Shown here: positions 1 through 34,721 of the stretch, piece by piece
Numbering within the stretch: position 1 is the stretch's first letter
How the letters are laid out: every line of letters starts with the position of its first letter
Source of the DNA: Streptomyces lichenis
GTDB lineage: Bacteria > Actinomycetota > Actinomycetes > Streptomycetales > Streptomycetaceae
DNA: 64,000 nucleotides
Assembly: GCF_023218175.1 (NCBI RefSeq)
Contig: NZ_JALPTH010000032.1
Coordinates: 1 to 64,000, forward strand
Reading direction: 5' to 3'
Notes under the pieces: generated by a model
Seen by the model: the letters and a program-made list of their open reading frames with translations, nothing else
Database searches by the model: none
What the model was told of the DNA's origin: nothing
Position numbers and translations under genes: made by a program

Positions 1-2616
1 TCCCCGGCCCCTGAGGCCCCGGCCCCCGCCGTGGCGGAGTCCCCCCTCACCGACGCCACGTCCGCCACCCCTCTGCCCGCCGAAGCGGCCCCCTTGGCCC
101 CTCCGGCCCCGGAGTCCCCGGCCACTGAGCCTGCCCCCACCGAGGCGGTTGCCACCGAGGAAGCGGCGCCCGAGGCAGCGGTGTCCGAGGCGCCCGCCCC
201 GGAGCCGACCGCTCCCGAGGTCGCTCCCGAGCAGGCCCCGCAGCCGGTGGCCCCCGAGCAGCCCCCGGCCCCGGCAGCCCCACCGGCCCAGGAGCCCGCC
301 GCCCTCGCCGAACCGGCCCCCGCACCCGAACCGGCCCCCGTAGCCGAACAGTCGATGGCCGCCGAGCCGGCCGCCATGGCCGAGCAGGCCGTGGCCGCCG
401 AGCCCGCGACCGTACCGGCCCCCGCCGCCGACCTCGTCGAGGCGACCCCCCAGCCCACCGAGGCGCCGACCGAGGCCGCCCCCGCACCCGCGCCGGAATC
501 CGTCTCCGTCTCCGTGCCCGAGTCCGAGCCCGCCCCTCAGTCCGAGCCGGCCCCCCAGGCCGAGACCGCATCCGCTCCCGAGTCGGCGACCGGGCACATC
601 CCCGACCCCGCGCCCGAGGCAGAGCCCCTGGCCACCGCCGAGCAACCGAACCCCGCCCCGGTGGAGTGGCCCGAGCCCGCCCCCGCCGACCCGGAGAGCA
701 CGCCCTCCGCAGCGGTCGTGCTCACCGAAGAGGCACCCACCGGAGAAGCACCCGCCGAAGAAGCACCCGCCGAAGAGACGGCGACCGTGGAACCCGCCAC
801 GTCAGTGGTCACCGAGGAGGTGCCCACCGAGAACGTGGCCGCCCCCGAGGCCGAGCCGGCCGGACCCACCGAGGAGGTGGCCACCCCCGCCGCCCCGCCC
901 TACGACGACGCCGAACGCGAAGCGATCCTCCGCGTCATGCGCGAGCGCCGGGACATCCGCAACGGCTTCCGCCCGGACCCCATCCCGCACGAGGTGCTGC
1001 TCCGCGTCCTGGAGGCCGCGCACACCGCGCCCAGCGTCGGCCACTCCCAGCCCTGGGACTTCGTGGTCATCCGCTCCGCCGAGACCCGGCGCACCATGCA
1101 CGAACTGGCCCAGCGGCAGCGCGAGGCCTACGCCCGCTCCCTCCCCAAGGGCCGCGCCAAGCAGTTCAAGGAACTGAAGATCGAGGCCATCCTCGACACC
1201 CCGGTGAACATCGTCGTCACCGCCGACCCCACCCGCGGCGGCCGCCACACCCTCGGTCGGCACACCCAGCCGCAGATGGCGCCCTACTCCTCCGCGCTCG
1301 CGGTGGAGAACCTCTGGCTCGCCGCCCGGGCCGAAGGGCTCGGCGTCGGCTGGGTCAGCTTCTTCGACGAGCGCGAGATGGTCCGCAGCCTCGGCCTGCC
1401 CGACCACCTCGAAGTCGTCGCCTACCTCTGCGTCGGCTATGTCGACGAGTTCCCCGAGGAGCCCGAGCTCGCCCAGGCCGGCTGGTCCAAGCGGCGCCCG
1501 CTCTCCTGGGTGGTCCACGAGGAGACCTACGGCCGCCGGGTGCTGCCCGGCGCGGAACCGCACGACCTCCTCCAGGAGACCGTCGCCGGAATCCGCCCCC
1601 TCGACGCCAAGGCGCTCGGGGAGGCCTGGGAGCGCCAGAAGCGGATGACCAAGCCGGCCGGCGCGCTCGGCATGCTGGAGATCATCTCCGCGCAGCTCTC
1701 CGGGCTCTCCCGGATGTGCCCGCCGCCCATCCCGGAGCCCGCCGCCGTGGCGATCTTCGCCGGCGACCACGGGGTGCACGCCCAGGGCGTCACCGCCTGG
1801 CCGCAGGAGGTCACCACGCAGATGGTCGCCAACTTCCTGGGCGGCGGCGCGGTCTGCAACGCCTTCGCCAACCAGGTCGGTGCCGAGGTCTGCGTCGTGG
1901 ACGTCGGCGTGGCCTCCGAACTCCCGGCCACCCCCGGACTGCTGCCGCGCAAGATCCGCCCCGGCACCTCCGACTTCACCACCGGCCCCGCGATGACCCG
2001 CGAGGAGGCGATGGCCGCCGTCGAGGTGGGCATCGAGACCGCCCGCGACCTGGTCACCGCGGGCAACCGGGCGCTGCTCACCGGTGAGATGGGCATCGCC
2101 AACACCACCGCCTCCGCGGCCCTCATCTCCGTCTACACCGGTGCCGACCCCGCCGAGGTCACCGGCCGCGGCACCGGCATCAACGACGAGATGCACGCCC
2201 GCAAGGTCGACGTGGTCCGCCGCGCCCTGGAGCTGCACCGCCCGGACCCGGCCGACCCGCTCGGCGTCCTCGCCGCGCTCGGCGGCCTGGAGCACGCCGC
2301 GCTCGTCGGTTTCATCCTGGGCGGCGCCTCCCTGCGTACCCCGGTCGTCCTCGACGGCGTCAGCGCCGGGGCGGCAGCCCTGGTGGCCCGCGCCATCGCC
2401 CCGGAGGCCCTGGCCGCCTGCATCGCCGGCCACCGCAGCGCCGAGCCCGGCCATGTCGCCGCGCTCAACAAGCTCGGCCTGCGCCCCCTGGTCGACCTCG
2501 ACCTCCGCCTCGGCGAAGGCACCGGCGCCCTGCTGGCCCTCCCCGTCATCCAAAGCGCCGCCCGCGCCATGCACGAGGTAGCCACGTTCGACTCCGCCGG
2601 AGTCACCGAGAAGTAG
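1..2616 (+). CDS. cobT: BluB-CobT fusion protein, 5' end outside window
   Basis: The reading frame is open from base 1, so the start lies upstream. Roughly the first 300 visible residues are low-complexity Pro/Ala/Glu. Next comes a nitroreductase-fold BluB domain (about residues 300-510; RRDIRNGFRPDPI, APSVGHSQPWDF) that would make 5,6-dimethylbenzimidazole from FMN. The last 350 residues are CobT, nicotinate-nucleotide:dimethylbenzimidazole phosphoribosyltransferase, with FAGDHGVHAQGV and the C-terminal LGEGTGA carrying the catalytic Glu. The fusion couples synthesis and activation of the lower ligand of cobalamin. A cysG/cobA-like tetrapyrrole gene follows across a repeat island. The stop TAG at 2614 is directly followed by repeat copy A. 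Confidence 0.92.
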   Translation, partial: SPAPEAPAPAVAESPLTDATSATPLPAEAAPLAPPAPESPATEPAPTEAVATEEAAPEAAVSEAPAPEPTAPEVAPEQAPQPVAPEQPPAPAAPPAQEPAALAEPAPAPEPAPVAEQSMAAEPAAMAEQAVAAEPATVPAPAADLVEATPQPTEAPTEAAPAPAPESVSVSVPESEPAPQSEPAPQAETASAPESATGHIPDPAPEAEPLATAEQPNPAPVEWPEPAPADPESTPSAAVVLTEEAPTGEAPAEEAPAEETATVEPATSVVTEEVPTENVAAPEAEPAGPTEEVATPAAPPYDDAEREAILRVMRERRDIRNGFRPDPIPHEVLLRVLEAAHTAPSVGHSQPWDFVVIRSAETRRTMHELAQRQREAYARSLPKGRAKQFKELKIEAILDTPVNIVVTADPTRGGRHTLGRHTQPQMAPYSSALAVENLWLAARAEGLGVGWVSFFDEREMVRSLGLPDHLEVVAYLCVGYVDEFPEEPELAQAGWSKRRPLSWVVHEETYGRRVLPGAEPHDLLQETVAGIRPLDAKALGEAWERQKRMTKPAGALGMLEIISAQLSGLSRMCPPPIPEPAAVAIFAGDHGVHAQGVTAWPQEVTTQMVANFLGGGAVCNAFANQVGAEVCVVDVGVASELPATPGLLPRKIRPGTSDFTTGPAMTREEAMAAVEVGIETARDLVTAGNRALLTGEMGIANTTASAALISVYTGADPAEVTGRGTGINDEMHARKVDVVRRALELHRPDPADPLGVLAALGGLEHAALVGFILGGASLRTPVVLDGVSAGAAALVARAIAPEALAACIAGHRSAEPGHVAALNKLGLRPLVDLDLRLGEGTGALLALPVIQSAARAMHEVATFDSAGVTEK

Positions 2617-2618
2617 CG

Positions 2619-2878
2619 GTGGGCGGCTGGCGCCGCCGGTGTCCGGGCCGGGCCCCTGCCGGTGGCCTCGCTGACGCGGTTGGGTCTGTTGCGGCCTGGG
2701 TCCGGTGGCCATTTCCAGGCCCGGTGGTCGGGTCCGCTCTGCGGTGGGTGGGGGCGTGGGCACTCCGGGCTCACGTGCTCGCGGCTCGCGCTGACCGTCA
2801 GACGGTCAAGCGCACCGCCTCATTACGCTCGGCCGCTGCGCGCGCGACCCTGCGTACCCCCACCCGACCGGCGGCGCA
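2619..2878 (+). repeat. Long interspersed repeat, copy A (diverged)
   Basis: This is one of three copies of a repeat of about 265 bp. It begins with GTGGGCGGCTGGCGCCGCC three bases after the cobT stop. Conserved blocks are GGTGGCCTCGCTGACGCG, ACTCCGGGCTCACGTGCTCG, a palindromic core, CGCCTCATTACGCTCGG and TGCGCGCGCGACCCTGCGTA. The core at 2792-2808 is TGACCGTCAGACGGTCA, a perfect inverted repeat with 8-base arms. This copy is clearly more diverged than copies B and C. It faces copy B. Confidence 0.9.
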
Positions 2879-2879
2879 C

Positions 2880-3966
2880 TGACCGATTCGCCGTGGCTGA
2901 TATCCCGGGCCGACGACACGCACCCGCCGGACGCCACCGCCCGGCGATCGGTACGGCCCGCCACTCCCCGGCCTCGGACCGCCCTAAGGGCTGTTTTCCG
3001 GCGTACGAGGTCCTGCCGGGCCGAGGTCCCGCACAGGTCGGACGCCACCGCCCGGCGGTAGTACCGCCCCGCCAGGCCTCAGTCCCGTAGACCTACAGCG
3101 GCCCTCCCGGGCCCGAGCGGCCGGGTACGGCCCACCGCGCCCTGGCCCCATATCGCGCCGCCCGGGGTCTGGGCTCCGGCCTACCAAATCTTCCCGGGCC
3201 GAGGGCCCGCGCCAGACGGACTCCCCGCCCGTCGGGCGATGCAGCCCGCCCGGTCACTGCCCCGTACGACCGCCTGCTGTCCATTCGGGCCCCGGACCCG
3301 TACCAGCCGGACGTCACCGACCGGCAGCGGATACGGCCCCTACCGAGCCCCGGCCTCATACCGCCACCTGTAGCTGCGGCCCGGCGTGTGGGTCCTGCCG
3401 GGCCCAGGGCCTGATCCTCGCCGGACACACCACCGCCCGGCGGTTGATACGCCCCTCCGGGCCGCGCCCCGTACCGCCGCGCCGGGCTGCTGCCCGGGCA
3501 TACGGGCCCTACCAGGGCGGTGACCCGCACCGCCCGTACGACCCCGCCCGACCGGTGGGGCGACGGAACCTCATCGCGGTGGCTGACGTGCCCCCGAGGC
3601 AAGGGGCTCTTGATTTCCCGGGCCGAGGGCCCGTGCCCGTCGGACGCCACCGCCCGGCGGTTGATACGGCTCCACCGGCCTTCGGCCCTGTACCGCCGCC
3701 TGGGGTTGCTGCCCCCGGGCATATGGGCCCTGCCATGGCCAAGGGCCCGCACTGACTCGTACGGCTCCGCTCGACCGCGAGGCCGACCGATCCCGTCACG
3801 GCGGCTCATGACCCCCGGGCCGAGGGCCCGCACCGGTCGGACGCCATTGCCCGGTGGATGAGCCGGCCCCACCGGGCCCGTACGCCGGATGCGGCGCCAA
3901 TCGGGCCTGGGCCCGTACCGCCGCGTCGGGCGTTTGTCACGGCCGTCAGGCCGGGAGATGGAGTCA
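2880..3966. repeat. Degenerate tandem-repeat array between facing repeat copies
   Basis: No convincing gene was found in these 1.1 kb. Related units recur, such as CCCGGGCCGAGGGCCCGCAC followed by GGTCGGACGCCACCGCCCGG and GGTTGATACGGC. Examples start near 2905, 3020, 3196, 3290, 3400, 3616 and 3810. A second unit type reads GTACCGCCGC, GCTGCCCCCGGGCATA and GGGCCCT (near 3470 and 3690). TAC- or TAT-centred motifs recur about every 25-130 bp in otherwise GC-saturated DNA. Indels between units break any single reading frame, so the array looks non-coding. Confidence 0.75.
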
Positions 3967-4235
3967 CCGGGGTGCACTCGCCCTCCGGACGTTGGGTGGG
4001 GTACGCAGGGTCGCGCGCGCAGCCGCCGAGCGTAATGAGGCGGTGAGATTGACCGTCTGACGGTGAGCGCGAGCGGCGAGCACGTGAGCCCGGAGTGCCC
4101 CGCCCCCCACCCACCGGGCAGAGTGCACACCCACCGGACCCGCACACCGCCACCGGACCGAAACCGGAACAGACGCAGGCGCGTCAGCGAGGCCACCGGC
4201 CGGACCGGGCCACTGGCGGCGTCAGCCGCCCCCAC
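3967..4235 (-). repeat. Long interspersed repeat, copy B (inverted)
   Basis: Read on the minus strand, this copy matches copy C (34455-34721) almost base for base, including the ACTCTGCCCGGTGGGTGGGG block and the terminal AACGTCCGGAGGGCGAGTGC. It is inverted relative to copy A, so A and B form long imperfect inverted repeats around the degenerate array. The core palindrome is 4049-4067. It lies just upstream of the cysG-like gene and could carry or displace that gene's promoter. Confidence 0.9.
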
Positions 4236-4365
4236 GGCTATCGTTGGCCAGAACACCCCACCCCCTCCGACCAGCCGCTCCACCGCCGCAGCGGCCGACA
4301 CCACCGCACCGCGCCCCGCGCTGCCCCGCAGCGCCCCCGGGCCCCGCCGAGGAGCCGCACCCCGC

Positions 4366-5649
4366 ATGGCCGAGACCGCCGAGACCGCCGAAGCCGCCGA
4401 GTACGCCGACCACCCCGCCTACCCCGTCGGACTGCGCCTGTCCGGGCGCCGCGTCGTCGTCATCGGCGGCGGCCAGGTCGCCCAGCGCCGGCTGCCGGCC
4501 CTGGTCGCCGCGGGCGCCGACGTCACCCTGGTGTCCCCCTCGGCCACCCCCTCCGTCGAGGCCATGGTCGAGGCCGGCGAGCTCCGTTGGGAGCGCCGCC
4601 GCTACGAGGAGGGCGACCTGGCCGGAGCCTGGTACGCCCTGATCACCGCGAGCGACCCGGTGGCCTGCGCTCGGGCCTCCGCCGAGGCCGAGCGGGAGCG
4701 CGTGTGGTGTGTGCGCTCCGACGACGCAGCCGCCGCCACCGCGTGGACCCCGGCGACCGGCCGCAGCGAGGGCGTGACGGTCGCCGTGCTCACCGGCCAG
4801 GACCCGCGCCGCAGCGCCGCCGTCCGGGATGCCATCGTCGAGGGCCTGCGCGAGGGCACGATCGCCGCCCCGCACCACCGCGCCCGCACCCCCTTCGTCG
4901 CCCTCGTCGGCGGCGGCCCCGGCGACCCGGACCTGATCACCGTCCGAGGACGCCGGCTGCTCGCCGAGGCGGACGTGGTCATCGCCGACCGCCTCGGCCC
5001 CCGGGACCTGCTGGACGAGCTCCCGCCGCACGTCGAGGTGATCGACGCGGCGAAGATCCCGTACGGCCGCTTCATGGCCCAGGAGGCCATCAACAACGCG
5101 TTGATCGAGCACGCCAAGGCGGGCAGGTCGGTCGTCCGGCTGAAGGGCGGCGACCCGTTCGTCTTCGGCCGCGGGATGGAGGAGGCGCAGGCCCTCGCCG
5201 CGGAGGGCATCGCCTGCACGGTGGTGCCGGGCATCTCCAGCTCGATCAGCGTCCCGGGCGCGGCCGGCATCCCGGTGACCCACCGAGGGGTGGCGCACGA
5301 GTTCACCGTGGTCAGCGGACATGTAGCCCCCGAGGACCCGCGCTCCCTGGTGGACTGGGCCGCGCTGGCCCGCCTCACCGGCACCCTGGTGATCCTGATG
5401 GGCGTCGACAAGATCGGCGCGATCGCCGCGGCGCTGATCGCCCACGGCAAGGACCCCGCGACGCCGGTGGCACTGGTCCAGGAGGGCACCATGGCCGCCC
5501 AGCGCCGGGTGGACGCCACCCTGGCGACCGTGGGGGAGCGGGTGGTGGCCGAGGGCGTCCGCCCACCCGCCGTGATCGTCGTCGGCGAGGTGGTCGCCGA
5601 GGGCCCCACCAAGCCCCCGGTCGAGGACCCGGAGGCTCCCCGTGGCTGA
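4366..5649 (+). CDS. cobA: Uroporphyrinogen-III C-methyltransferase / precorrin-2 dehydrogenase (CysG/CobA type)
   Basis: The 427-residue protein starts at ATG 4366 behind GAGGAG. The upstream frame stays open only because it runs through repeat copy B. The N-terminal Met8-like Rossmann domain (about residues 20-140) has RRVVVIGGGQVAQRR. The C-terminal SAM-dependent methyltransferase domain (about 175-415) has VGGGPGDPDLITVRG, RLKGGDPFVFGRG and PGISSSISVPGAAGIPVTHR. It should methylate uroporphyrinogen III at C2 and C7 and oxidise precorrin-2, feeding siroheme and cobalamin, which fits the neighbouring cobT. No ferrochelatase function can be assigned from sequence alone. The next gene overlaps it by 8 bases. 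Confidence 0.92.
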   Translation: MAETAETAEAAEYADHPAYPVGLRLSGRRVVVIGGGQVAQRRLPALVAAGADVTLVSPSATPSVEAMVEAGELRWERRRYEEGDLAGAWYALITASDPVACARASAEAERERVWCVRSDDAAAATAWTPATGRSEGVTVAVLTGQDPRRSAAVRDAIVEGLREGTIAAPHHRARTPFVALVGGGPGDPDLITVRGRRLLAEADVVIADRLGPRDLLDELPPHVEVIDAAKIPYGRFMAQEAINNALIEHAKAGRSVVRLKGGDPFVFGRGMEEAQALAAEGIACTVVPGISSSISVPGAAGIPVTHRGVAHEFTVVSGHVAPEDPRSLVDWAALARLTGTLVILMGVDKIGAIAAALIAHGKDPATPVALVQEGTMAAQRRVDATLATVGERVVAEGVRPPAVIVVGEVVAEGPTKPPVEDPEAPRG

Positions 5650-10502: not shown

Positions 10503-10511
10503 ATCAAGGTG

Positions 10512-10583
10512 TGGACGATACTGGGATTGAACCAGTGACCTCTTCCGTGTCAGGGAAGCGCTCTCCCGCTGAGCTAATCGTCC
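10512..10583 (-). tRNA. tRNA-Val(GAC), copy 1
   Basis: A 72-nt tRNA with acceptor GGACGAT/ATCGTCC, anticodon loop CTGACAC (anticodon GAC) and T arm CTGGTTCAATCCCAG. CCA is not encoded. It is the last gene of a leftward operon that runs Gly, Cys, Val, Val, Val. Confidence 0.96.
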
Positions 10584-10617
10584 TCGGGACCGCGACCCGA
10601 GGGCCGCCGGTGATGCG

Positions 10618-10689
10618 TGCGCGATACTGGGATTGAACCAGTGACCTCTTCCGTGTCAGGGAAGCGCTCTCCCGCTGAGCTAATCGCGC
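10618..10689 (-). tRNA. tRNA-Val(GAC), copy 2
   Basis: Identical to copies 1 and 3 except in the acceptor stem, which is GCGCGAT/ATCGCGC with compensated changes. The anticodon loop is CTGACAC. CCA is not encoded. Confidence 0.96.
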
Positions 10690-10708
10690 GGGGGCCCTCG
10701 CGGGCCAG

Positions 10709-10780
10709 TGGACGATACTGGGATTGAACCAGTGACCTCTTCCGTGTCAGGGAAGCGCTCTCCCGCTGAGCTAATCGTCC
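10709..10780 (-). tRNA. tRNA-Val(GAC), copy 3
   Basis: Same 72-nt sequence as copy 1, with acceptor GGACGAT/ATCGTCC and anticodon GAC. It lies 19 bp from copy 2. Confidence 0.96.
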
Positions 10781-10784
10781 TTGG

Positions 10785-10855
10785 AGGTGGAGACGGGATT
10801 TGAACCCGTGTAGACGGCTTTGCAGGCCGTTGCCTCGCCTCTCGGCCACTCCACC
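10785..10855 (-). tRNA. tRNA-Cys(GCA)
   Basis: A 71-nt tRNA with acceptor GGTGGAG/CTCCACC, anticodon stem-loop ACGGC-CTGCAAA-GCCGT (anticodon GCA) and discriminator U, as expected for Cys. Confidence 0.96.
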
Positions 10856-10891
10856 AGGAGCTGCGGGGGTTCGGGAAGATCCCCCACGTCG

Positions 10892-10964
10892 AGCGGACGA
10901 CGAGATTCGAACTCGCGACCCTCACCTTGGCAAGGTGATGCTCTACCAACTGAGCCACGTCCGC
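10892..10964 (-). tRNA. tRNA-Gly(GCC)
   Basis: A 73-nt tRNA with acceptor GCGGACG/CGTCCGC, anticodon loop TTGCCAA (anticodon GCC) and discriminator U. It is the promoter-proximal gene of the leftward tRNA operon. Confidence 0.96.
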
Positions 10965-18352: not shown

Positions 18353-18424
18353 GGGCGATTAGCTCAGCGGGAGAGCGCTTCGTTCACACCGAAGAGGTCA
18401 CTGGTTCGATCCCAGTATCGCCCA
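18353..18424 (+). tRNA. tRNA-Val(CAC), copy 1
   Basis: A 72-nt tRNA with acceptor GGGCGAT/ATCGCCC, anticodon loop TTCACAC (anticodon CAC) and T arm CTGGTTCGATCCCAG. CCA is encoded at 18425-18427. TAATGT at 18334-18339 is a possible -10. Confidence 0.96.
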
Positions 18425-18434
18425 CCAGCCCGGA

Positions 18435-21516: not shown

Positions 21517-21588
21517 GGGCGATTAGCTCAGCGGGAGAGCGCTTCGTTCACACCGAAGAGGTCACTGGTTCGATCCCAGTATCGCCCA
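21517..21588 (+). tRNA. tRNA-Val(CAC), copy 2
   Basis: Base-for-base the same 72-nt tRNA as at 18353, with anticodon CAC. Here CCA is not encoded (CCG follows the discriminator). Confidence 0.96.
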
Positions 21589-21594
21589 CCGGAG

Positions 21595-33335: not shown

Positions 33336-34504
33336 GGATCGGCATCGTCTGCCCCTACTCCTGGGACGTCCCCGGCGGGGTGCAGTTCCACATCCGCGAC
33401 CTCGCCGACCACCTGATCCGCCTGGGCCACTCGGTCTCCGTCCTCGCTCCCGCCGACGACGACACCCCCCTCCCCCCGTACGTCGTCTCGGCCGGCCGCG
33501 CCGTGCCCGTCCCGTACAACGGCTCGGTCGCCCGCCTCAACTTCGGCTTCCTCTCCGCCGCGAGGGTGCGCCGCTGGCTGCACGAGGGCACCTTCGACGT
33601 CATCCACATCCACGAGCCTGCCTCGCCCTCCCTGGGCCTGCTCTCCTGCTGGGCGGCCCGCGGCCCGATCGTGGCCACCTTCCACACCTCCAACCCGCGC
33701 TCGCGCGCCATGATCGCCGCGTACCCGATCCTCCAGCCCGCGCTGGAGAAGATCAGCGCCCGGATCGCGGTCAGCGAGTACGCCCGGCGCACCCTGGTCG
33801 AGCACCTGGGCGGCGACGCCGTCGTCATCCCCAACGGCGTCGACGTCGACTTCTTCGCCAGGGCCGAGCCGCGTCCCGAGTGGCAGGGCGGCACCCTGGG
33901 CTTCATCGGCCGCATCGACGAACCCCGCAAGGGGCTGCCCGTCCTGATGAAGGCCCTCCCCCACATCCTCGCCGCCCGCCCCGACACCCGCCTGCTGGTC
34001 GCGGGCCGCGGCGACGAGGAGGAGGCCGTCGCCTCCCTCCCCGCCGAGATGCGCTCCCGGGTCGAGTTCCTGGGCATGGTCAGCGACGAGGACAAGGCGC
34101 GGCTGCTGCGCAGCGTGGACGTGTACGTGGCCCCCAACACCGGCGGCGAGAGCTTCGGCATCATCCTGGTCGAGGCCATGTCGGCGGGCGCCCCGGTCCT
34201 CGCCAGCGACCTGGACGCCTTCGCCCAGGTCCTGGACCAGGGCGCGGCGGGCGAGCTCTTCGCCAACGAGGACGCCGAGGCGCTGGCCAAGGCCGCGGTC
34301 AGCCTCCTCGGCGACCCCCTCCGCCGCGCCGAACTCCGCGACCGGGGCAGCGCGCATGTGCGGCGCTTCGACTGGTCCACGGTCGGCGCGGACATCCTCG
34401 CGGTCTACGAGACGGTCACGGCGGGGGCTGCGGCGGTGGACGCGGACGAGCGACGTGGGCGGCTGGCGCCGCCAGTGGCCCGGTCCGGCCGGTGGCCTCG
34501 CTGA
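33332..34504 (+). CDS. pimA: Phosphatidylinositol alpha-mannosyltransferase PimA
   Basis: The 390-residue GT4 glycosyltransferase starts at GTG 33332, overlapping the acyltransferase stop. It begins MRIGIVCPYSWDVPGGVQFH and contains VVIPNGVDVDFFARAEP, LGFIGRIDEPRKGLPVLMKA, and the EX7E donor motif in GESFGIILVEAMSAG. It transfers the first mannose from GDP-mannose to phosphatidylinositol at the membrane. Oddity: the last 17 or so residues (from RGRLAPPVARSG) and the stop are encoded by repeat copy C, so the original C terminus was probably replaced. Confidence 0.95.
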   Translation: MRIGIVCPYSWDVPGGVQFHIRDLADHLIRLGHSVSVLAPADDDTPLPPYVVSAGRAVPVPYNGSVARLNFGFLSAARVRRWLHEGTFDVIHIHEPASPSLGLLSCWAARGPIVATFHTSNPRSRAMIAAYPILQPALEKISARIAVSEYARRTLVEHLGGDAVVIPNGVDVDFFARAEPRPEWQGGTLGFIGRIDEPRKGLPVLMKALPHILAARPDTRLLVAGRGDEEEAVASLPAEMRSRVEFLGMVSDEDKARLLRSVDVYVAPNTGGESFGIILVEAMSAGAPVLASDLDAFAQVLDQGAAGELFANEDAEALAKAAVSLLGDPLRRAELRDRGSAHVRRFDWSTVGADILAVYETVTAGAAAVDADERRGRLAPPVARSGRWPR

Positions 34505-34721
34505 CGCGTCTGCGTCTGTTCCGGTTCCGGTCCGGTGGCGGTTTGCGGGTCCGGTGGGTGTGCACTCTGCCCGGTGGGTGGGGGGCGGGGCACTCCGGGC
34601 TCACGTGCTCGCCGCTCGCGCTCACCGTTCGACGGTCAATCTCACCGCCTCATTACGCTCGGCGGCTGCGCGCGCGACCCTGCGTACCCCACCCAACGTC
34701 CGGAGGGCGAGTGCACCCCCG
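34455..34721 (+). repeat. Long interspersed repeat, copy C
   Basis: Almost identical to copy B (3967-4235, minus strand) and related to copy A. It begins within the 3' end of pimA. The internal core at about 34624-34636 (ACCGTTCGACGGT) has a weaker inverted repeat than A or B. Similarity to copy B's flank continues more loosely to about 34850 (GGCCGCAGCCGG then TACGGGCCCGG). Confidence 0.9.

Follow-up and report, generated by a model that had tools for sequence, protein, structure and literature searches.

A composite repeat island between cobT and a cysG-like gene of Streptomyces is one member of a dispersed family of mirrored folded units

What separates cobT from a cysG-like gene in the window, the whole stretch of 64,000 nt of Streptomyces lichenis DNA analysed here? 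The initial annotation had described a composite island of facing repeats around a degenerate array, which could fold into a very long hairpin or have entered as one block, and had proposed comparing the island with itself and the spacer with those of related species. In a gapped self-comparison, the arms at 2621-2868 and 3991-4231 were aligned in inverted orientation with 83.2% identity over 250 columns at 254 bits, whereas the best inverted match in 40 dinucleotide shuffles scored 38.3 bits. Complementarity was 85% over 206 nt (2655-2860 against 3998-4203) and 82% in the outer arm parts (2621-2654 against 4198-4231). Between the arms, at 2881-3997, 17 direct self-matches above 30 bits were detected, compared with a mean of 0.1 and a maximum of 1 in 40 shuffles; six control stretches of the window gave no such match. 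These results confirm the facing inverted repeats around a degenerate array. Terminal motifs of the same kind, GTGGG..GGCTG.CGCCGCC, were read inward from both 2619 and 4235, indicating that the island had been delimited fittingly. The Pfam matches of its neighbours bear out that it lies between two genes of the same pathway; these genes are separated in relatives too, and here the hexamer TATCGT, which we take to be the promoter -10-like hexamer of the cysG-like gene, lies between the island and that gene. In agreement with the non-coding nature presupposed by the initial annotation, the codon-usage caller called no gene between 2616 and 4366; long chance open reading frames occur there, but codon-usage signal is absent between the two flanking genes, and a protein-coding island was therefore ruled out. 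The fusion protein encoded on the left carries an N-terminal stretch of ~300 residues, rich in Pro, Ala and Glu, with short tandem repeats.

Table 1. Features of the island and related features of the window.
Feature	Position	Strand	Basis or remark
Composite island, whole	2619..4235		From cobT stop to the presumed cysG promoter region
Arm A, outer end first	2619..2880	+	11 further A-type arms in the S. lichenis genome, fragments excluded
Structured unit R1 of arm A, outward reading	2749..2869	-	93.5 bits and predicted fold
Degenerate array of related GC-rich segments	2881..3990		Self-matches and direct-repeat families
Inner segment adjoining arm B	3815..3990	+	81-86% match to four other islands of the same genome
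Structured unit R1 of arm B, outward reading	3989..4109	+	88.3 bits and predicted fold
Arm B, orientation from 4235 inward	3991..4235	-	Arm comparison and terminal motif
TATCGT hexamer before the cysG-like gene	4239..4244	+	By eye; kept in most relatives' spacers inspected
Left neighbour, fusion of nitroreductase (PF00881) and CobT (PF02277)	31..2616	+	Pfam; island begins straight after the stop
Right neighbour, CysG-like (PF13241 and PF00590)	4366..5649	+	Pfam
Third copy in the window, single B-type arm	34455..34699	-	R1 unit at 34579-34699

Arms of the same kind recur across the S. lichenis genome (G000; 7.12 Mb in 67 contigs). We found 20 arm cores, 12 of type A and 8 of type B, and arm A gave 29 matches at E <= 0.001, itself counted. 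Five further A/B pairs face each other with 355-881 nt between their cores. Arms A and B represent two distinct subtypes of a dispersed family, which goes beyond the initial annotation, and the island is one member of this family of non-coding composite repeats, in which related units stand as mirror images with their 5' ends inward. Entry of the island as one block is possible in that A-B pairs recur elsewhere, but the middles are largely mosaic, and at two other loci a unit lies at the same place in another species. In a search of 199 genomes of the genus, with three candidates scored per genome, the full arm was nearly private to S. lichenis; the other matches were short, the best (E = 2.4e-11) being in CB03234 (G006), a member of the same genus. 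The arm core had no match in 72,556 plasmid records, by which a plasmid origin was ruled out. Two A-type arm fragments, at L062:2489-2563 and in L063 near 2017, end at a short hairpin of the CCCCC[AT] type and look as if insertion of the hairpin had cut the arm.

Each arm holds a unit of ~120 nt, termed R1, whose folding strand is the one read from the centre of the island towards its outer end. The consensus fold consists of stem P1, a 3x3 internal loop (GCA/GGA), P2, a 3x2 internal loop (GCA/GA), P3 and a variable tip, and the letters of the internal loops are among the most constant positions of R1, near-invariant across dialects. An IUPAC pattern derived from the arm core detected 64 stretches in six Streptomyces genomes (S. 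noursei B-3066, CB03234, S. pyxinae, S. lavendofoliae, PR69 and TRM49041). In alignment A1, which comprises 54 outward units and leaves out units with nested hairpins and three of 57 deduplicated units (L091, L116 and L120), 97.6% of cells were paired, as against 34-50% with slid partners. Nine pairs showed double changes (5.0 in shuffles) in 72 cells (13.1 in shuffles), a level reached in none of 500 shuffles. The outward strand had the lower alifold energy (-39.1 versus -28.6) and, in 52 of the 54 units, the lower single-sequence energy. When distant dialects were included (alignment A3), 17 of 26 pairs were compensatory in 128 cells, compared with 28.8 in shuffles, although A3 was fitted to model R1 and hence leans to its fold. 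These data demonstrate that the stems of R1 covary strongly and support a local fold within each arm; covariation exceeding that of shuffles and slid partners, on one strand, is as expected of a structured RNA. Two covariance models of 120 positions and 26 pairs, R1 and the wider R2, were used and extend to distant dialects. Minimum-energy folds were computed for eight units singly. All eight had the second loop open (as GGA/GA in the G094 unit, L168), and five had the first loop open, namely both window units, one of S. noursei and those of G075 and G094; this first loop contained isolated pairs in the CB03234 and G155 units (L108, L253) and was closed by pairing in the G089 unit (L167).

A known RNA family was ruled out by Rfam, which at gathering scores reported tRNAs only over the window, nothing at E <= 1 over 2400-4500 and nothing at E <= 0.5 over 11 loci of other genomes. 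The tRNA genes of the window, at 10511-10964, 18353-18427 and 21517-21590, comprise a cluster of three Val-GAC copies, Cys and Gly, then two Val-CAC copies further on. The 60 nt following the unit contain 3.3% T (117 units) and hence no U-tract, indicating that R1 is not a canonical intrinsic terminator. The same 60 nt hold 47.6% C and 30.8% G, with iterations of CCACCGG visible by eye; one may guess that this T-poor, C-rich strand is a Rho-loading type of sequence. In the units of CB03234 and S. noursei, the arm strand shows a match to the 16S anti-Shine-Dalgarno sequence, TCACCTCCT; the S. lichenis dialect has lost it, and this reading was therefore dropped. Short hairpins of the form CCCCC[AT]...GGGGG[GT]ACCCCCA, with differing stems, were observed at nearly the same place in R1 units of three species (L050:2253-2284, L084:7442-7481, L100:1566-1598, L104:3013-3053, L113:5851-5874 and L142:2828-2868). 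Of 15 matches to this pattern in 649 kb of loci, six lie within units, which total 12.4 kb; the R1 element seems to be the target of a small second repeat.

To describe how units are arranged, we defined a site as units at most 1600 nt apart, with flanks and gene calls taken from a rough codon-usage caller. One of 118 rows was dropped from the first hit set before sorting (L061, the third unit of the window itself), and three of 61 from the second, distant-dialect set (L218, and both of L242, duplicates of L257 and L261). The searches of many genomes considered the best 22-30 candidates per genome, so that unit counts in rich genomes are at least those given. All 28 two-unit sites of the first set and all 14 of the second had their 5' ends inward; with one duplicate taken out of each set (L168/L174; L249), 27 and 13 of these are distinct. 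Together with a later search, 40 of 41 distinct two-unit sites are arranged 5'-inward as in the island, the sole exception being a '--' site in G170 that is a 169-nt tandem duplication. Three-unit sites read '--+' and '-++', and partner units lie 23 to 1329 nt apart. Of 24 pairs typed by motif (nine from S. noursei, nine from CB03234 and six from S. lichenis), 23 combine different subtypes, either I and II or A and B; the remaining one, in L124, falls with type II in the tree. Such fixed mirrored, heterotypic pairs would be expected of an element with a left and a right end. The pairs of G094 follow the plan of the window in different letters, with long arms, outer repeats of ~100 nt and inner repeats.

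Some sites are shared between species, as judged by neighbour proteins. Two S. lichenis sites (meaB; DUF3000) have a unit in the corresponding CB03234 spacer, as do ten S. noursei sites; the match extends to both flanks at seven of these twelve and to a single flank at the other five. At the two S. lichenis sites, inspection by eye shows that conservation of the spacer close to the upstream gene lies mainly in the unit. A tree was built from 92 units of 105-126 nt in six groups, with few columns. All 19 S. lichenis units used fell on one side of a branch with support 100, and the six groups required 9 changes, compared with 44.7 in shuffles. Same-site units of S. lichenis and CB03234 are 66% and 72% identical, whereas units from different sites of S. 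lichenis average 92-94% identity. The contrast is smaller between S. noursei and CB03234, where nine same-site, same-type comparisons gave 83-92% against paralog means of 85-94%. Units therefore cluster by species and not by site, which is concerted evolution. At the base of P3 in type I, CB03234 has AG/CT in 26 of 28 units read and S. noursei GG/CC in nine of 11, a compensatory switch made in step at scattered sites. The homogeniser could be gene conversion, copying over or a co-evolving factor.

Comparison with related species showed that the 1.7-kb length of the cobT-cysG spacer is not conserved, in line with the expectation of the initial annotation. Measured between the cobT stop and a fixed motif ahead of cysG, the spacer spans 107-500 nt (median 241.5) in the relatives that allowed the measurement, 22 out of 27 with the cobT end in view and 29 fetched, as against 1655 nt in S. 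lichenis. No strong R2 unit was detected in the cobT-cysG loci of the 29 relatives, indicating that the island was either gained here or lost elsewhere. One weak R2 candidate (28.1 bits, E = 0.003) lies in the spacer of G004, shortly after cobT; it is oriented like unit B and not like A, and has a very stable fold (z = -7.3) with a GCA/GGA loop. This unit-like hairpin of 150 nt, at L189:2915-3066, lacks the second loop.

Across the genus, R1 units were found in six of 121 sampled genomes and R2 units in 16 of 159, while a draw of 119 genomes of the order yielded units in five, all of this genus; S. lichenis is counted in each. Letters of the S. noursei type occurred in six of 392 genomes, S. 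lichenis not being among these. Weak matches such as that of G004 suggest that more dialects have been missed. Since detectable members are confined to a minority of the genus, their function cannot be essential. We found no description of the R1 element in the open-access literature, including the available parts of PMC3116915, PMC3765725 and PMC4681348.

The units sit in spacers between chromosomal genes. The 3' end of single units of the first set faces the 3' end of a gene in 44 of 55 cases (p = 9e-6); on the 5' side there is no bias (30 of 53, p = 0.41), and the distant set shows no significant bias of this kind (10 of 17, p = 0.63). These counts were tallied by eye, with one single unit (L177, identical to L246) being in both sets and sites orthologous between species not being independent. 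Four of the 28 two-unit sites of the first set lie between divergent genes. Of 30 proteins beside 14 S. lichenis sites, 26 had Pfam matches, which comprise enzymes, regulators, cell-surface proteins and domains of unknown function; no transposase was among the 30. Y1_Tnp (PF01797), the only transposase domain scanned for genome-wide, was present in three of 16 genomes, two of the 12 that bear units (G094 and G323) and one of the four others, with five of 14 controls positive. It was absent from G000, G006, G249, G289, G070, G075, G089, G158, G370 and S. noursei B-3066. The Y1 genes of G094 and G323 had no unit in their surrounding loci; in G094, an IS200/IS605-type pair of Y1_Tnp and OrfB (L264:2352-4028) lies in a 5.5-kb locus free of units. 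A RAYT/REP system was rejected on these grounds, namely the absence of Y1_Tnp from S. lichenis and of units near it in G094 and G323. A gene-carrying parent element was likewise rejected, since the wide '-'/'+' arrangements of G094 (L245, L246) enclose ordinary genes, for a glycosyltransferase, a solute-binding protein, a SIS domain and a trypsin-like protease, and not transposases.

How does the family relate to known repeats? MITEs are non-coding, have terminal inverted repeats, occur in several copies and are present or absent at orthologous spacers. The island likewise has terminal inverted repeats and no coding capacity, and its family has several copies, present or absent at orthologous spacers. 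In contrast to MITEs, the ends consist of units that fold on one particular strand, and species have some of the sites in common. No parent transposase was found among the 30 proteins scanned beside 14 sites, and the relatives' cobT-cysG spacers are too variable to be aligned for a target duplication. The BIMEs of enterobacteria are mosaics of inverted subtypes, extragenic, dispersed and alike within a genome. R1 resembles them in its extragenic mosaic of inverted subtypes and its within-genome likeness, a comparison made by description only, and by description it is set apart in unit size, sequence, structure and taxon. The unit of REPINs and BIMEs is a short palindrome of a few tens of nucleotides, in contrast to the 120 positions and 26 pairs of R1. 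In the sections consulted of Bertels and Rainey 2011 (PMC3116915), REPIN/REP doublets are extragenic, inverted and scattered, occur also as solo units and have hairpins predicted in single-stranded DNA or mRNA. R1 shares with them inverted, dispersed, extragenic doublets (40 of 41 sites) of folding units, and solo units occur. However, its unit of ~120 nt has two internal loops and is not a short REP palindrome, its partners are different subtypes, long degenerate arrays can lie inside, and a RAYT-type Y1 transposase is missing from S. lichenis. Because of the several-fold longer unit, the differing partners and the lack of the REP transposase in ten of 12 unit-bearing genomes, R1 was not filed as a REPIN.

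The explanation that we favour, at about even chances, is a joint one: the family is giant and REPIN/BIME-like, and a boundary at gene 3' ends is the service it renders. That the fold is strand-specific and the loops are constant suggests recognition of a single strand in its folded state; this would be the outward strand, as RNA or single-stranded DNA. Gene conversion or occasional copying would maintain the likeness of the copies. The unit would most probably serve to bound genes at their 3' ends: in a transcript leaving the spacer toward the 3' end of a neighbour, the fold would be the last part made, and it would stall, end or be processed before antisense RNA enters the neighbouring gene. 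The boundary role is our best guess; both the facing bias seen in the first set and the abundance of overlapping 3' transcripts in Streptomyces (PMC3765725) agree with it. Those cutoRNAs, overlapping 3' ends of convergent genes that are common in Streptomyces, share with R1 the position at 3' ends of convergent genes and the problem of strand overlap, but they are a transcript class and not a repeat family, and the word 'repeat' is absent from the main text of PMC3765725. Against the boundary role stand the distant set, with its lack of significant bias, and the four sites between divergent genes, where a boundary makes no sense. The favoured explanation as a whole also has against it the missing U-tract, the lack of the REPIN-spreading enzyme in ten of 12 unit-bearing genomes, the first internal loop that is open in five of eight single folds, and the restriction of detectable members to a minority of the genus.

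A purely selfish element is almost as likely as the boundary. According to this reading, which is a real possibility though short of an even one, R1 would be a non-autonomous mobile element, MITE- or REPIN-like, with the units as its two ends; a putative enzyme would need the fold in single-stranded DNA, and the position at gene ends would merely reflect harmless insertion. The constant mirror arrangement of two differing ends, A and B, the solo ends, the non-coding sequence, the close likeness of copies within a genome, the lack of a strong unit in the relatives' cobT-cysG spacers and the Y1 transposase of G094 and G323 are consistent with it. It is harder to reconcile with the ten unit-bearing genomes of 12 that lack Y1, including S. 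lichenis, CB03234 and S. noursei, with Y1 genes that have no unit nearby, with the 30 transposase-free neighbours, and with units that stay at orthologous sites between species. Ordinary terminator hairpins, made repetitive by recombination and sharing inherited letters that have no function, are an unlikely source of the family. In several relatives, cobT is by eye directly followed by a hairpin of unrelated sequence, and clusters of hairpins can terminate transcription, as stated in PMC8355165; but mirror order with heterotypic partners, constant loops and compensatory switches coordinated across the genome exceed what simple hairpins need, and the U-tract is missing.

It is similarly improbable that the island consists of twin small-RNA genes, with divergent promoters in the centre and each unit an independent trans-acting non-coding RNA. 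The folding and covariation of the outward strand, the near-invariant loop letters and a mirror order that places both 5' ends at a common centre would agree with such genes, whereas the centre varies from 23 to 1329 nt in length and, by eye, differs in sequence between species and shows no shared promoter; single units are common, and at least 20 very similar copies would be unusual for a regulatory RNA. The least probable reading by far is a fold-back island, in which arms A and B pair and the 1.6 kb form one giant hairpin. The 83-85% complementarity of the arms makes the very long hairpin of the initial annotation physically possible, but covariation lies within the arms, and cognate arms are not better matched than others. 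Cognate A-B arms of S. lichenis were 0.850 identical and non-cognate ones 0.848, with 248 of 720 permutations reaching a value as high, and the corresponding core values were 0.782 and 0.781 in S. noursei and 0.760 and 0.759 in CB03234. Since true partners in these three genomes match no better than arms A and B combined at random, we rejected the island-wide hairpin as a structure kept by selection.

More tentatively, and with more doubt than confidence, R1 might be a new class of structured nucleic-acid element of Streptomyces, in which two heterotypic folds in mirror image would mark the ends of genes, with a putative co-evolving trans-acting factor as their reader. If so, each lineage would write its own stem dialect through concerted compensatory changes while the internal loops stay nearly fixed. 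The two covariance models, R1 and R2, are at hand for testing against public RNA-seq. Streptomyces spacers are easily dismissed as GC-rich noise, and some of them hold a large, folded, two-part element. The R1 family is a natural experiment in how dispersed non-coding repeats are kept alike without an obvious transposase, and it bears on how convergent transcription is handled in organisms in which 3' ends often overlap.
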